NCBI RefSeq assembly: GCF_014196305.1
Contig: NZ_JACIDJ010000001.1
Location: forward strand, 523,683 to 587,682
Reading direction: 5' to 3'
DNA length: 64,000 bases
Origin: Roseococcus suduntuyensis
GTDB taxonomy: Bacteria; Pseudomonadota; Alphaproteobacteria; Acetobacterales; Acetobacteraceae
The notes beneath the pieces are model-generated. The model was given only the letters and a program-made list of their open reading frames with translations, did not search any database and was not told the DNA's origin. Shown here piece by piece: positions 36,782-41,908 of this stretch (position 1 is its first letter; every line of letters starts with the position of its first letter). The translations under genes were made by a program, and so were the position numbers.

Positions 36782-37491
36782 AACTGCTGCTGCTGAATGG
36801 CAACACGGACGAGGCCATCACCGCGCGCCTCGCCACCGCCGCGCGCGGGATGTGCGCGCATGAGATCACGCCCGTCACCGCACCCTTCGGCGCGCGCTAC
36901 ATCGCCAGCCGCGCCGCCGTGGCGGTGGCCGGGCATGCGGTGCTGGAGGCCCTGGCGCAGCACATCGGCCCCGACAACGCGGCGGGCTATGACGCCGCCA
37001 TCATCGGCTGCTTCGGCGAACCCGGGCTGGACGCGGCGCGCGAGACCTTCCCGCTGCCCGTGCTGGGCATGGCCGATGCCTCCATCCGCGTGGCGCTGCG
37101 CGCGGCACCATGCGTCGCCGTGCTGACCGGCGGCGCCGCGTGGGTGCCGATGCTGGAGGAATTTTTCCTGGTGCGCGGGCTGACGCGCGACCAGGTGCGG
37201 GTGGCCGCCATCACACCCACGGGCGATGCCATCGCGCGCGACCCCGACGCCGCCGCCCTGCTGCTGGCCGAGACGGCGCGCGCCGAGATCGCGCAGGGCG
37301 CCGGCGCCGTGCTGCTGGGCGGCGCCGGGCTGGTGGGCCTGGACGCGCGGCTGCAACCACTGCTGCCCGTGCCCGTGATCTGCGGGCTGCGCGCCACGCT
37401 CGACACACTGCCCGGTGCGCGGGTGCCGCGCGGGGGTGTGGCGCCGAGTGTGGGCCTTTCCGCCGCGCTCAGTCGCTGTCTGGCGGGATGA
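36778..37491 (+). CDS. Asp/Glu/hydantoin racemase family protein
   Basis: A 237-residue racemase-like protein: LLLLNGNT at the N-terminus, the first catalytic Cys in IIGCFGEPG (about residue 78) and a second-site region LLGGAGL near 180 in which the usual Cys is not obvious. The closest groups are hydantoin racemase and allantoin/Asp racemase. The only suitable start is TTG at 36778, overlapping the regulator stop as TTGA. An ATG at 36676 would overlap the regulator by over 100 bases. Its 3' end overlaps the convergent dehydrogenase by 23 bases. Confidence 0.75.
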   Translation: MKLLLLNGNTDEAITARLATAARGMCAHEITPVTAPFGARYIASRAAVAVAGHAVLEALAQHIGPDNAAGYDAAIIGCFGEPGLDAARETFPLPVLGMADASIRVALRAAPCVAVLTGGAAWVPMLEEFFLVRGLTRDQVRVAAITPTGDAIARDPDAAALLLAETARAEIAQGAGAVLLGGAGLVGLDARLQPLLPVPVICGLRATLDTLPGARVPRGGVAPSVGLSAALSRCLAG

Positions 37492-38473
37492 CGTTGGTGT
37501 CGAGGCCGCGCAGCAGCACGTCGCGCATGGTCTCGATGCCCTTGAGGCGGATGTCGTCCCAGGCCTCGGGGCTGTGGAAGGCGGCGTGCGGCATGATGAC
37601 CAGGCGGCCGCGCAGCCACTCCTCCCGCGCGCGATAGGCGGCGAGCAGCGGCGGTTCCGGCACGGGCGGTTCCACCGGCAGCACGTCGAGGCCCGCGCCC
37701 GCGATGCGGCCCGAACGCAGCCCGGCCTCCAGCGCGTCCAGATCGAGGATCGGCCCGCGCGCGGTGTTGATCACCACCGCGTTCTCCGGCAGCGCGGCCA
37801 GCGCCGCCGCATCCACCAGGCCGCGCGTGTGGCGCGTCAGCGGGCAATGGATGGAGAGCACGTCGGATTGCGCCATCAGCGCGTGCAGGCTGTCCGCGCG
37901 GGCGATGCCCAGCGCGCGGTCGGCGCCCTTGGGCAGATACGGGTCGAAGAACGTCACGCGGAAGCCCAGCGCCTTGGCGCGGAGTGCGGCCGCCGTGCCG
38001 ATGCGCCCCAGCCCCAGCACGCCGAAGCCCTGCACATCGAAGCGGCGCACGATCTTGTTTTGCAGCACACCCCAGGGGCAGGGCGGGTTGTCGCGCATGG
38101 CGTCGTGGTAGAGCACCATGCCGCGCCGCAGCGCGAGGGCCATGGTGATGGCGGTGTCCGCGACCTCGGCCGTGCCGTAGTCGGGGACGTTGCAGACCTT
38201 GATGCCGCGGCGCGCGCATTCGGCGCGGTCCACGCGGTCATAGCCCACGCCCATGCGCACCACGACCTTGAGCTTCGGAAACTTCGCCAGCGCCTCGGCG
38301 GGGACGGCGAGGCGGAGCGTCATGAGGCCGTCCACCTCGGCGCAGAGTTCGTCCGGCAGTTCCAGCAGCGATTTTTTCGCATTGCCTTGCAGGAGGCGCA
38401 CGCCCTCGCCGACGATGCGGCGTTCGAGGGCGGTGTCGGGGTAGAGGGATTCGGGTTCGAGGATGGTGGGCAT
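37469..38473 (-). CDS. D-2-hydroxyacid dehydrogenase (CtBP-like)
   Basis: A 334-residue NAD(P)-dependent enzyme. Rossmann motif GLGRIG is near residue 153, NAD-site Asp in FFDPYL, catalytic Arg in NTARGPILD, Glu in GLDVLPVEPP and His in PHAAFHS. It reduces 2-oxoacids such as glyoxylate, hydroxypyruvate or a phosphoglycerate analogue; the CtBP-like branch is suggested by PHAAFHSPEAW. It is a single gene, convergent with the racemase. Confidence 0.87.
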   Translation of the reverse strand: MPTILEPESLYPDTALERRIVGEGVRLLQGNAKKSLLELPDELCAEVDGLMTLRLAVPAEALAKFPKLKVVVRMGVGYDRVDRAECARRGIKVCNVPDYGTAEVADTAITMALALRRGMVLYHDAMRDNPPCPWGVLQNKIVRRFDVQGFGVLGLGRIGTAAALRAKALGFRVTFFDPYLPKGADRALGIARADSLHALMAQSDVLSIHCPLTRHTRGLVDAAALAALPENAVVINTARGPILDLDALEAGLRSGRIAGAGLDVLPVEPPVPEPPLLAAYRAREEWLRGRLVIMPHAAFHSPEAWDDIRLKGIETMRDVLLRGLDTNVIPPDSD

Positions 38474-38598: not shown

Positions 38599-39105
38599 AT
38601 GGACGCGCTGCACATCCGGCAAGGCGAAGCCCGCGACCTTCCGGCGCTGGTCGAGATCTTCAACCACTACGTCGCGCACGGGCATGTCACCTTCACGACC
38701 GTGCCGCACACGCTGGAATCCCGGACCACCTGGTTCGCGACCTATGGCACGGGCCGGCACCAGTTGCTGGTGGCGGAGCATGAGGGCGCGGTGGTGGGCT
38801 GCGCCTATAGCAGCCCCTATCGCCCCGGCCCCGCCTTCGACACGACGGTGGAAACCAGCATCTACCTGGACCCGGAGCGGCGCGGGCTGGGCGCGGGGAA
38901 GCGCCTCTACGCGGCGCTGCTGGAACGGTTGGCGGCGCAGCCCGTGCACCTGGCGGTGGCGGGGGTGGCGCTGCCCAATGAGGCCTCGCTCGCGCTGCAC
39001 CGGAAGATGGGGTTCGAGGAGGTGGGCACCTTCCGCGAGTATGCGCGGAAGAATGGGGTGTGGATCAGTTCGACCTGGTTTCAGCGGAGGGTGGGGACGG
39101 CGTAG
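38599..39105 (+). CDS. GNAT N-acetyltransferase, phosphinothricin acetyltransferase-like
   Basis: A 168-residue acetyltransferase. IRQGEARDLPALVEIFNHYV at the start, VGCAYSSPYRPGPAFDTTVE in the middle, the acetyl-CoA loop PERRGLGAGKRLY and GFEEVGTFREYARKNG at the end match the Pat/Bar-like group that acetylates small amino compounds. Its stop codon sits in the left edge of a broken hairpin element, just before the AT-rich insertion. Confidence 0.87.
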   Translation: MDALHIRQGEARDLPALVEIFNHYVAHGHVTFTTVPHTLESRTTWFATYGTGRHQLLVAEHEGAVVGCAYSSPYRPGPAFDTTVETSIYLDPERRGLGAGKRLYAALLERLAAQPVHLAVAGVALPNEASLALHRKMGFEEVGTFREYARKNGVWISSTWFQRRVGTA

Positions 39106-39125
39106 AGTGCGATCCGCGGAGGCGG
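39101..39125. repeat. Broken family I hairpin unit at the insertion edge (locus F)
   Basis: CGTAG at the acetyltransferase stop, then GATCCGCGGAGGCGG (39111-39125), matches the reverse complement of the locus B unit exactly over 15 bases plus the stop-codon edge. The match ends abruptly at 39125, where AT-rich sequence begins; the other half-hairpin is missing. This marks the left boundary of inserted DNA. Confidence 0.75.
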
Positions 39126-40989
39126 AATTGTCATGTTAGCCGCGAAAATTACGGTGCGGCAGACCATTAATATTTAGCGAACGCGACCGAAGGAAATAAA
39201 GATATGATACTACATCTAAGAATAACCAATTTCAAAAGATTTGACCGATATCATGTGAAACTGACAAATGGAAATATTTTGGTTGGACCCAATAATTCAG
39301 GTAAATCTTCTGTTTTAGATTGTTTCAAGATTTTGGATTCTGCCCTGAGATATGCTAAGGGAGCTTCTCCAAAATTAAAGTCTATTGAGGGTAAAGGCGT
39401 GGTTTCTTATTTTGAGCTTCCAATGAGAATTGTTGACTTTCTAAATGATAATTTAAGTAATAATTATAGTGAAGATGATTCTATATTAGAATTTACGCAC
39501 GCCAATAAGAATAAAATTGTGATTACTTTTTCAGAAACAAGAGCGCCTATAATGCATATGGAAACTAGTGCGCGTCTCCCGCGGAAGAGTTCCGAATTTC
39601 GGTCGCTTTTTCCAGTTGATCTTGTTATTATCCCTCCTATTTCACCTCTCGAAGAAAACGAAATTTATCTGAAAGATGAAACAGTAAAAGCAAATGCTCG
39701 AACTCGCCTCGCAAGTCGATCTTTTCGTAATTTCTGGCTTAGGCAGTCGGAAGAAGATTTTCAAAAATTTAGAGCTGATGTTGAGAGGGTGTGGCCAAAC
39801 ATAGTGGTGCAGTTTCCCAATCAACCTACTATTACAAGCAAAGTTGTAACTATGTATTTTGAAGAAAGAAGGATTCCACGAGAAATTTATTGTTCTGGAT
39901 TTGGTTTTCAAATTTGGCTTCAGCTAATGACGCATCTTCAAAATTGTACATTAAATAGTATTCTCGTTCTTGATGAACCAGATGTATACCTTCATCCTGA
40001 TCTTCAGCGCGCTCTATATCGACTCATAAAGGAACGTTGTGGTCAATTTGTTATTGCCACCCATGCAATTGAAATAATAAATGAGGCCGATACCGAGGAA
40101 GTTGTTACAATAAATTCCTCATATAGGGCAGCTCGGCGCATCAGTTCGGAAGACGAATTTTTAGCCCTTCACCGCTATCTTGGCTCACATGAGAACGCTG
40201 AATTTGCTCGCATCGCAAAATCTCGGCGAATAATTTTTGTTGAAGGCAAGGATGGTAGGCTGTTACGGAAATTTGCGCAAATACTTGGCTTAGTTATGCT
40301 TCACGAAACTAATAATGTTCCAATTATGAAGCTGGGCGGCTTTTCTGAATGGCGCAAAGCCCAAGCGGCGGTCTGGGCATTTCAGGAAATTATCAAAATA
40401 GAAATGGATGCGTTCTGTGTTTTTGATCGTGACTTCAAATCTGACGCAGAAGTAGCCGATTTTTTGGCTGAGTTTGATGCACCACGTTTAAAAGTTCGAA
40501 TTCTAGAAAGGAAAGAAATAGAAAATTATTTATTAATTCCTGAAGCTATTGCTGCCGCCGCGAATTTACGCCTGCGCGAGCGAACCTTACCTGCCTCAGT
40601 TTCTGCCACTATGATCAGGGATATGTTAAGAAAGATCGCGTCTGAACTTGAGACAGAGGTTGGTAGCCAACTGTCGTCGCAAGAAATTAGATATAGATCC
40701 AGGCGTAAGAATAAATACGATGAGTCGACAGTAATTAAAATTTCTATGAATTTGGCTAGAAAAATGACGATTGATGACGATTTATTGCTCCGTCTTCTCC
40801 CGGGAAAAGAGGCTCTATCTAGACTCTTTGAGCGCCTCAAGTCAGATACGGGCGTGTCCCTCACCGAGGCTATGATTTTGTCTCAAGTTCGTATCGGGCA
40901 GGTCGCTCCTGATCTCGTAGAGATTTTATCTGCGATTGACGCGTTTTGTAACTTGGCCGTTTGTAACTTGGCCGATGGAAAAGAATAAT
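39126..40989. mobile_element. AT-rich single-gene genomic insertion at tRNA-Leu
   Basis: Base composition drops sharply from GC-rich flanks to AT-rich and returns at the tRNA. The left edge is the point where a hairpin element is cut; the right edge coincides with the 3' end of tRNA-Leu(UAA), one base after the ORF stop. The segment holds only the OLD-like gene and its roughly 80-base leader with AT-rich ATTAATATTTA at 39166-39176. No integrase, transposase or direct repeat of the tRNA end is visible on the left, so it looks like a remnant or a passively exchanged cassette. Confidence 0.7.
39204..40988 (+). CDS. OLD-like ATPase with TOPRIM-like C-terminal domain
   Basis: A 594-residue protein. 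The N-terminal SMC-like ATPase has Walker A GPNNSGKSS (about residues 29-37), Walker B SILVLDEPDVYLHPD near 255 and switch His in IATHAIEI. From about 345 a TOPRIM-like domain follows: IIFVEGKDGRLLRKFA (Glu), FCVFDRDFKSD (DxD) and ERKEIENYLL. That order is the OLD-family layout of ATP-gated nucleases, many of which defend against phage. The ATG at 39204 has GAAGGA nine bases upstream. Codons are AT-rich, with TTA leucines (four in the first 100 codons). There is no partner gene such as a GajB helicase, so it would act alone. Its stop abuts the tRNA-Leu 3' end. Confidence 0.82.
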   Translation: MILHLRITNFKRFDRYHVKLTNGNILVGPNNSGKSSVLDCFKILDSALRYAKGASPKLKSIEGKGVVSYFELPMRIVDFLNDNLSNNYSEDDSILEFTHANKNKIVITFSETRAPIMHMETSARLPRKSSEFRSLFPVDLVIIPPISPLEENEIYLKDETVKANARTRLASRSFRNFWLRQSEEDFQKFRADVERVWPNIVVQFPNQPTITSKVVTMYFEERRIPREIYCSGFGFQIWLQLMTHLQNCTLNSILVLDEPDVYLHPDLQRALYRLIKERCGQFVIATHAIEIINEADTEEVVTINSSYRAARRISSEDEFLALHRYLGSHENAEFARIAKSRRIIFVEGKDGRLLRKFAQILGLVMLHETNNVPIMKLGGFSEWRKAQAAVWAFQEIIKIEMDAFCVFDRDFKSDAEVADFLAEFDAPRLKVRILERKEIENYLLIPEAIAAAANLRLRERTLPASVSATMIRDMLRKIASELETEVGSQLSSQEIRYRSRRKNKYDESTVIKISMNLARKMTIDDDLLLRLLPGKEALSRLFERLKSDTGVSLTEAMILSQVRIGQVAPDLVEILSAIDAFCNLAVCNLADGKE

Positions 40990-41072
40990 ACGGGCGGCGG
41001 GACTCGAACCCGCACGGTCCCAAGGACCGAGGGCTTTTAAGGCCCTTCCGTCTACCATTCCGGCACGCCCGC
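40989..41072 (-). tRNA. tRNA-Leu (anticodon UAA)
   Basis: An 84-nt cloverleaf on the minus strand. Acceptor GCGGGCG pairs with CGCCCGT, leaving a G-U pair at position 1-72. D stem CCG/CGG, anticodon stem AGGGC/GCCCT with loop CTTAAAA (anticodon TAA), a long variable arm CGGTCC-TTG-GGACCG typical of Leu and T arm GCGGG-TTCGAGT-CCCGC are all present. A73 is present; CCA is not encoded. Its 3' end touches the stop codon of the AT-rich gene, so the last bases may derive from the insertion. Confidence 0.93.
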
Positions 41073-41091
41073 GCACGCCCGCGCACGCCCA
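41063..41091. repeat. 10-bp tandem repeat duplicating the tRNA 5' end
   Basis: GCACGCCCGC is repeated 2.7 times, and the first copy is the 5' end of the tRNA-Leu. Read on the tRNA strand, GCGGGCGTGC occurs once in the leader and once as the mature start, so two identical acceptor strands are available for pairing. Confidence 0.85.
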
Positions 41092-41096
41092 ACCGC

Positions 41097-41126
41097 AGAT
41101 TACGCGGGCGCAACCCACCCCGTAAA
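41097..41126 (-). promoter_or_regulatory. Candidate promoter of tRNA-Leu
   Basis: On the minus strand TTTACG (41126-41121) and TAATCT (41102-41097) are 18 bases apart, with the mature tRNA start 25 bases downstream. This fits a sigma-70-type promoter with a short leader. Confidence 0.45.
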
Positions 41127-41203
41127 GCAGGCTGCCGCAGCTATTGCACCGGCGCGCCCATCCGCGAACATGGCGACAACACCCCGTCCAGGAAACACCC
41201 GCC

Positions 41204-41908
41204 ATGTCCCAAGCCACCAAGACCGCCGGCCTGCTGCTCTTCCCCGGCCTGACGCAGCTCGACCTCACCGGGCCCTATGAGGTGCTGGCCAATCTCCCCG
41301 GCTGGAAGGTCGAGATCGTGGCGAAGCAGGCCGGCCCAGTCCGCACCGCCAAGGGCATGGTCATCCACGCCGACCAGGGCTTCGACACCGCGCCCCAATA
41401 CGACCTCTTCGCCATCCCCGGCGGCCCCGGCACCGATGACGCGCTGACCGATGAGGCGACGGTGGAATTCGTCCGCCGCCAATGCGAGGGCGCCGAGAAC
41501 GTCTTCGGCATCTGCACCGGCTCGCTGCTGATCGGCGCCACCGGGCTGCTGCGCGGCCGCCGCGCCGGCTCGCATTGGGCGGCGCGGCACCTGCTGGCCC
41601 GCTTCGGCGCCGAGGTGCGGGATGAGCGCATGACGAAGGACGGCAAGTTCTACACCGCCGGCGGCGTCACCTCCGGCATCGACATGGCGTTGCGGGTGGT
41701 GGCCGACATCGCGGGCGAGGAGGCGGCGCAGCAAATCCAGCTCCAGATCGAATACGACCCGGAGCCGCCCTTCCGCAGCGGCACGCCCTTCACGGCAGCC
41801 CCGCACATCCTGGCCCGCGCCCGCGCGGCGGGCGAGGCGCGCCGCCCCATCCGCGAGGCGGCGGTGGAGGCGGCTGCGGCACGGCTGGCTTCTGGCACTC
41901 CTGGTTGA
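41204..41908 (+). CDS. DJ-1/PfpI family protein, isonitrile hydratase-like
   Basis: A 234-residue DJ-1/PfpI-type protein. LLLFPGLTQLDLTGPYEVL at the N-terminus carries the conserved Asp/Glu region, and the nucleophile elbow GICTGSLLIGATGLL holds the Cys near residue 104. AGGVTSGIDMALRVV is the region shared with isonitrile hydratase and GlxA-type regulators. No DNA-binding domain is attached. The ATG at 41204 begins the conserved fold; an ATG at 41144 adds 20 non-conserved residues. Confidence 0.83.
   Translation: MSQATKTAGLLLFPGLTQLDLTGPYEVLANLPGWKVEIVAKQAGPVRTAKGMVIHADQGFDTAPQYDLFAIPGGPGTDDALTDEATVEFVRRQCEGAENVFGICTGSLLIGATGLLRGRRAGSHWAARHLLARFGAEVRDERMTKDGKFYTAGGVTSGIDMALRVVADIAGEEAAQQIQLQIEYDPEPPFRSGTPFTAAPHILARARAAGEARRPIREAAVEAAAARLASGTPG

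Follow-up and report, generated by a model that had tools for sequence, protein, structure and literature searches.

The window analysed here is a stretch of 64,000 nucleotides from Roseococcus suduntuyensis (NZ_JACIDJ010000001.1, positions 523,683-587,682 of the forward strand; source genome G000). Our subject is one AT-rich gene within it, which encodes an SMC/OLD-type ATPase joined to a TOPRIM-like domain and which we regard as a good candidate for a one-gene antiviral system. The gene, the cassette that it forms and the features on either side are given below in window coordinates.

39204..40988, plus strand: single gene for a protein of 594 amino acids (aa), with an SMC/OLD-type ATPase, a domain of TOPRIM order and a C-terminal helical domain (ATG start, TAA stop)
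39129..40988, no strand: AT-rich cassette of 1,860 bp, delimited by the profile of guanine-plus-cytosine (GC) content and by sister genome G004, which has 36 bp in the same place
39104..39128, plus strand: first half only of an intergenic palindromic repeat, which breaks off where the insertion begins
40989..41072, minus strand: tRNA-Leu(TAA), convergent right flank, not a recurrent landing site
38599..39105, plus strand: GNAT acetyltransferase gene (Pfam) of host-like GC content, left flank
37469..38473, minus strand: D-2-hydroxyacid dehydrogenase gene, on which the hotspot of the genus is anchored (its ortholog L103:2161-3171 matches Pfam 2-Hacid_dh_C)

The GC content falls from about 0.70 to 0.36-0.44 over the open reading frame (ORF) at 39204-40988 and rises again at the tRNA; this ORF segment alone drops below 52% in 500-bp windows within the 64 kb. 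A preliminary description of the locus had spoken of a solitary AT-rich ATPase-TOPRIM gene of foreign composition, and both the GC drop and the single 594-aa ORF bear this out. It had set the composition breaks at 39126 and at the tRNA: the right edge stands, with the stop codon (40986-40988) abutting the 3' end of tRNA-Leu(TAA), whereas the left edge lies a few bases further on, at about 39128-39130. The cut repeat that it described is also real, as the intact form, a palindrome of about 50 bp resembling repetitive extragenic palindromes, occurs whole in G004 and in contigs C3, C4 and C9 of the source genome, in tandem in C3 and C9 with a spacing of about 54-57 bp. A search of 38900-41300 turned up no att-like direct repeat, and no integrase was apparent among the neighbouring window ORFs as read by eye; we infer that the cassette is exchanged by recombination in conserved flanks. 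The search for regulatory signals returned no terminator-like site (2.7 in shuffled sequence) and eight promoter-like sites (3.4 in shuffles), none of the latter between the repeat and the start codon. Near its 3' end the gene carries a perfect, in-frame 15-bp tandem duplication (40945-40974).

Sister genomes show what the site looks like with other contents. G004 has, at the same place, the whole repeat and 36 bp ahead of the tRNA, versus 1,860 bp in the window, and the G003 site is taken up by an unrelated AT-rich gene, 271 codons long and pointing the other way. With one site near-empty and the other holding a different gene, the window gene is a variable presence here rather than one piece of a larger locus passed on vertically, as the earlier proposal of a one-gene cassette would have it. 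Of the 19 sister stretches searched, those of G000, G003 and G004 alone contain the GNAT gene. A relative of the window protein with 44% identity lies in G005 directly upstream of the dehydrogenase gene, which is the window gene's neighbour but one. The G003 gene beside tRNA-Leu (L037:1854-2669) encodes a protein of 271 aa with an apparent N-terminal membrane segment, to which neither Pfam nor PADLOC assigned a family within the limits applied, and is a candidate unknown defence gene.

The hotspot follows the dehydrogenase gene, not the tRNA. An AT-rich insert (<52% GC) lies upstream of the dehydrogenase gene in 7 of the 15 genus genomes in which the region is assembled (in the other six of 21, a dehydrogenase match is lacking or the sequence breaks off at the dehydrogenase gene or no more than 433 bp from it). 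No AT-rich block, here taken as 12 points below the locus mean, occupies the same place in 20 genomes from other genera of the family (20 of the 27 outside-genus genomes listed with a match; four of them hold only 1.3-5.5 kb upstream). Fisher's exact test on these counts gives p = 0.00096, which kinship among the genomes makes only a guide. Apart from the seven inserts, no segment of the 246.7 kb examined, which includes the window, falls below 52% GC. The tRNA, at which the preliminary description had placed the gene, fared differently as a landing site: among 18 tRNA loci surveyed with up to 1.5 kb of 3' flank each, the 16 in genus genomes outside the window's close clade had no AT-rich gene there. 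With no AT-rich gene in those flanks, AT-rich inserts in the dehydrogenase slot of 7 of 15 genomes and no att-like repeat, the tRNA is incidental to the hotspot, and tRNA-Leu(TAA) was rejected as an integration site.

The cargo of this slot varies. The family of the window protein occupies it in G000 and G005, a SIR2 protein (SIR2_2/ThsA-like) in G012, and an NsnA/GmrSD_N protein with an unknown one in G009. G008 has another OLD-like ATPase, with a TOPRIM over the Pfam OLD-like cut-off, and the inserts of G002 and G003 encode proteins that fall into no known family; in G000 and G003 the GNAT gene sits between the dehydrogenase gene and the insert. In having conserved flanking genes and swapping immune cargo, the slot resembles the core defence hotspots cDHS1 and cDHS2 of Pseudomonas aeruginosa, of whose sites 29% and 47% are reported to have no detectable mobile gene; it differs in the size of its inserts, which are one- or two-gene pieces of about 1-3 kb, the median for cDHS1 being given as 26 kb (PMC10250203). 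On the other side of the dehydrogenase gene, and on the same strand, 10 of the 15 genomes have an altronate-dehydratase-like gene. Its matched end lies 15 bp off in G010, and the distance in the nine others is 0.8-2.6 kb; the name was given by eye, with one Pfam GD_AH_C match among 93 neighbours scanned.

Some of these slot genes deserve a remark of their own. The NsnA-like gene of G009 (L091:8665-10448; PADLOC, 1.9e-79) lies beside a 229-aa gene of no family; an NsnB-like ATPase is absent from the AT-rich ORFs called in that insert, which is possibly a reduced Menshen-like pair. In G002 the slot holds an AT-rich (35% GC), membrane-looking protein of 301 aa with no family found (L100:2844-3746). 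At L090, L094 and L096 the place upstream of the dehydrogenase gene is taken, at host-like GC content, by genes that to the eye look like nucleotidyltransferases (VGGAAVE..GDFDV), accompanied in L094 and L096 by a small ORF; they may be toxin-antitoxin-like.

The motifs of the window protein lie as follows, with conservation counted over 67 aligned sequences. The alignment holds the window protein and 66 of 84 relatives; the 18 left out include broken, flagged or partial copies (for example L122, L134, L146, L162 and L173) and, chosen by no set rule, intact ones (for example L110, L139 and L144).

39285..39311, plus strand: Walker A, residues 28-36 (GPNNSGKSS), K34 in 67/67
39963..39983, plus strand: Walker B, residues 254-260 (LVLDEPD), D257 and E258 in 67/67
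40227..40535, plus strand: TOPRIM-like core, residues 342-444 (E347, D350, D408, D410, E438, E440), from the alignment, PADLOC matches and the predicted model
40800..40808, plus strand: PGK, residues 533-535, in the helical tail, with K535 as candidate catalytic lysine, present in 67/67

The EGKD, DRD and EIENYLL motifs named in the preliminary description are indeed present, at residues 347-350, 408-410 and 438-444, and their catalytic-type residues are close to invariant: E347 and D408 are found in all 67 sequences, D350 in 65 (Glu in the other two), D410 in 65, and E438 and E440 in 66 each. The second acidic residue follows E347 by three positions in the median member (range 3-4), the DxD motif and the last Glu are separated by 30 residues in 67/67, and the invariant Lys comes 92-99 residues further on. 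In the AlphaFold model (predicted local distance difference test score 92.4, predicted template modelling score 0.65) the ATPase is followed by a strand (342-347), a helix, a strand (374-377), a helix, a strand (402-407), a helix, a strand (429-433) and an all-helical tail (446-591). This predicted order fits TOPRIM, with E347 at the end of the first strand and D408 and D410 after the third.

The ATPase half is of a generic SMC/OLD/PtuA type. Pfam finds AAA_21 (3.7e-21) and AAA_15 (9e-18) in the window protein, both over their cut-offs, and structure matches for the ATPase extend over residues 1-330. The five best Foldseek matches were, in order, a retron PtuA, GajA, a retron PtuA, GajA and the Thermus scotoductus OLD protein (E about 1e-12 to 1e-11; template modelling score on the query 0.29-0.37); a second look at structure covered residues 1-330 only, and we conclude nothing from families missing there.

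The protein's relatives form a compact family, most of them encoded by one ORF of about 580-605 aa. When three aligned relatives served as the query, 157 of 245 pattern matches in named genome contigs were confirmed as relatives and the best 80 were kept; an earlier scan of genome contigs with a single sequence had confirmed none among 15 pattern matches. Only 3 of 219 pattern matches in viral contigs were relatives and none of 50,697 phage records matched, so a phage origin of the gene was rejected. Among plasmids, five records match at 1e-8, and in two of these, from Cupriavidus, the identity is 30-31% over 79-100% of the length; a plasmid search with the OLD-like cousin from G008 gave one weak match; a distant plasmid relative in Nostoc lies between the BREX genes pglX and pglZ. 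The family is rare, being found at E 1e-30 in 2 of 385 genomes of the class, the source genome among the two. In the tree of 67, nine phylum labels require 12 changes (minimum 8), and none of 200 shuffles, whose mean was 14.9, was as clustered; transfer between phyla is occasional, and this tree stops short of proving it.

Neighbours and composition were analysed in 83 of the 84 extracted loci, broken copies included (L181 runs off its contig). The gene lies more than 3 GC points below the rest of its locus in 77 of 79 loci, by a median of 14 points. No partner recurs: among 568 neighbour ORFs no cluster was found in more than five loci, which speaks against a regular Gabija- or retron-type partner; for class 3 OLD proteins, the retron effectors, such a partner would be a reverse transcriptase with its noncoding RNA. 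The window gene likewise has GNAT and the tRNA for neighbours and, unlike Gabija GajA, a class 2 OLD protein, no GajB UvrD-like helicase beside it; the preliminary description had noted this missing helicase, and none recurs in the 83 loci. Of the 96 nearest neighbours measuring 150-1300 aa, taken from the ORFs of a simple caller, 93 went into profile scans; the other three were pieces of broken family genes. The scans found LepA in five, carbamoyl-phosphate synthase in three, phage integrase in two and Pfam GD_AH_C in one; glmS was ruled out as the commonest neighbour, that being LepA. Other neighbours are of a defence-like kind: 56 PADLOC models found a match among them at 1e-20, each of the 25 shown being matched by one neighbour. 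Members beside a probable lepA, which make up a neighbour cluster of five loci, occur in Hyphomonadaceae, Paracoccaceae and Mesorhizobium (L106, L124, L135, L139 and L142), and the vicinity of lepA is a possible second landing spot for the family. A relative in Asaia (L162:10001-11712) has 10 in-frame stops over the match and is a decayed or frame-broken copy.

The best PADLOC match of the window protein is the fused PARIS protein AriAB (PDLC02981, 83.2 bits). With the PADLOC Old model it reaches 61 bits, versus 712 for P2 Old and 84 for YbjD, which is class 1 in print and which scores 267 bits with a GajA model. When the 67 C-terminal halves were compared with PADLOC at E 0.01, AriAB PDLC02981 matched 52, AriB 31, AriAB PDLC02982 five, Old one and single GajA models one to three, all of them weakly. 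The motif spacing is AriB-like, with the EIEN motif, rather than that of class 1 OLD proteins. The EG..D, DRD and ExEN(Y/L) motifs and the late invariant Lys are shared with fused ATPase-DUF4435 proteins, and profile alignment with hhalign of the C-terminal halves against six of these gave 97.6% over 98 columns.

The protein could be a divergent fused PARIS (AriAB), with the PARIS trigger and tRNA target and a sequence that is merely distant, a prospect that we take seriously and yet place well short of even odds. Like AriAB it has an ATPase and a TOPRIM-like domain in one chain, with DRD, acidic and ExEN motifs common to both, and its 83.2 bits exceed the 61 and 74 bits that two fused DUF4435 proteins obtain with the same model. 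Single-protein PARIS fusions were accepted by Rousset et al. above 80 bits with an AAA_15+DUF4435 profile (PMC9122126); the thresholds published for the fusion profile are 80 or 20 bits, and PDLC02981 is presumably that profile. However, the two fused DUF4435 proteins score 582 and 634 bits with PDLC02982, the AriAB model that found only 5 of the 67 halves and that does not appear in the window protein's list of its 25 best families. Pfam DUF4435 (cut-off 27 bits) has no match in the window protein at E 1, and matches 7 of 68 members at E 0.1. PDLC02981 is itself a loose model, because the G008 cousin with its OLD-like TOPRIM obtains 111 bits, more than the window protein; and since the fused DUF4435 proteins reach just 61 and 74 bits, it has no sure member to calibrate it. 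Under the published 80-bit rule, annotation tools may therefore label members of the family PARIS on a bare pass. Family searches for reference sets, at strict limits, returned AriAB in 0 of 190, Old in 0 of 142, GajA in 0 of 142 and DUF4435 in 1 of 142, and as AriAB and GajA were silent in the control genomes too, these figures are no proof of absence. Our best reading of the sequence comparisons is that the family would be a new variant, intermediate between OLD proteins and fused PARIS and to be filed in neither; it could also be one of the uncharacterised OLD clades U1-U11 that Yang et al. describe (PMC12796447).

We favour the explanation that the gene encodes a stand-alone fused sensor-nuclease acting by abortive infection, more likely cutting tRNA than phage DNA, and carried as a one-gene cassette in a hotspot; we put its probability at about 0.62. 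The SMC/OLD-like ATPase at the N-terminus (up to about residue 330) would form a multimer that keeps the C-terminal TOPRIM nuclease inactive, and on sensing a cue of infection would release it. A two-metal site of E347, D350, D408, D410, E438 and E440, aided by K535, would then cut nucleic acid, probably host tRNA as in PARIS AriB rather than phage DNA as in Gabija, and growth would stop ahead of phage production. Sensing and restraint by the ATPase and the cutting of tRNA by the TOPRIM domain are modelled on PARIS, in which the AriA sensor is described as holding AriB, a tRNase (PMC12409363); P2 Old, too, is said to cleave host tRNA, according to a secondary statement in PMC13261556. The gene would have arrived at the dehydrogenase spot, among small and often defence-like genes, as a cassette of one gene that was probably swapped in through recombination in the conserved flanks. 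A divergent fused PARIS would work in much the same way, so that the odds of the two overlap. A defence role of some kind is a safer proposition than this particular mechanism, and we consider it quite likely.

A number of observations weigh against the favoured explanation, some of them touching the nuclease half and others the defence role. The window's own C-terminal half scores only 18.9 bits with AriAB and 15.9 with AriB; the halves of the family also match PDC-M55B (18/67) and mad4 (6/67), and a profile search of the PDB with them found no relative. Pfam assigns OLD-like_TOPRIM to 21 of the 67 halves (best E 9e-5) and DUF4435 to 12 (best 1e-5). With hhalign the halves align to an OLD profile at 97.3%, nearly equal to the figure for the fused DUF4435 proteins, and the whole proteins align to OLD at 99.8% over 333 columns, versus 99.0% over 187 for the fused DUF4435 set; the OLD set here consists of three proteins, the G008 cousin included. 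Together with the solitary gene, the overall architecture and the T. scotoductus OLD protein (TsOLD) at Foldseek rank five, these alignments speak for a class 1 OLD nuclease, narrowly defined: an ATPase-TOPRIM protein, encoded on its own, that degrades DNA, for example when host RecBCD is blocked. The class 1 proteins P2 Old, TsOLD and YbjD do share a solitary SMC-like ATPase with a TOPRIM-like domain and the acidic residue set. Their pattern, however, is given as E, D at +4, DxD, SxE and a K/R soon after, with 47 residues between the DxD and the last Glu in TsOLD (PMC7049728); in the family the second acidic residue stands mostly at E+3, the interval is 30, and the invariant basic residue is not one that follows soon after but a Lys in the C-terminal helical domain, as in class 2 OLD proteins, whose Lys562 the same paper describes. 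The single Old match among the halves points the same way, and the low Old score, 61 bits against the 712 of P2 Old, does so less clearly, as YbjD itself gets just 84; we hold a class 1 nuclease to be improbable. The preliminary description's term "OLD-like" suits the ATPase half; for the TOPRIM half PADLOC prefers AriB to class 1 Old, while Pfam leans slightly to OLD-like_TOPRIM; its suggestion of a distinct subgroup with departing TOPRIM spacing is upheld by E+3, the 30-residue interval and the PADLOC pattern of the halves. On its expectation of a TOPRIM fold at the C-terminus the results diverge, the predicted model having the strand and helix order and the PDB profile search giving nothing.

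The defence role of the window gene is itself something that we infer, and the slot is not reserved for defence. Two of its seven AT-rich inserts have no known family, and genes of host-like GC content fill it elsewhere: a transporter-looking one in G016 (by eye), probably the same in G011, to judge from the equal gap, and a nucleotidyltransferase-looking one in G006, G015 and G020 (by eye), the last of which had no Pfam match when scanned. The solitary OLD protein YbjD is reported to keep its antiphage phenotype without its TOPRIM (PMC13261556), and the archaeal OLD protein Cran1 is described as seemingly non-defensive (PMC12796447). The gene might be a selfish or housekeeping single gene, a toxin-like moron or a DNA-repair ATPase, drifting through the hotspot, and many of the neighbours in other loci are housekeeping genes. 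Against this stand the patchiness and AT-rich composition of the gene, its rarity in the class, the nine phylum labels in its tree, and the SIR2 and NsnA proteins that occupy the same slot; we regard a role outside defence as doubtful. The favoured sensor-nuclease could also be one case of something larger, a widespread and as yet unnamed form of one-gene immunity in which a single chain is both infection sensor and AriB-like tRNA nuclease, apart from OLD classes 1-5 and fused PARIS, and travels as naked cassettes in small, integrase-free hotspots of the core chromosome. We think this rather unlikely.

Whether an isolated OLD-type protein alone can give broad antiphage defence was posed as a question in a 2023 review (PMC10568477). 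According to a 2026 paper (PMC13261556), YbjD shows partial phenotypes, and an OLD protein of Vibrio cholerae is cited there as defensive; the primary report on the latter was not found in our literature search. Among the matches listed for Roseococcus and defence, none was related by title. With the YbjD phenotypes and the V. cholerae protein, the question is open but moving, and a compact family with no recurrent partner, together with a sister genome whose site is near-empty, makes it testable. For Roseococcus-type bacteria, the small hotspot beside the dehydrogenase gene gives a short list of candidate genes, including two proteins of no known family.

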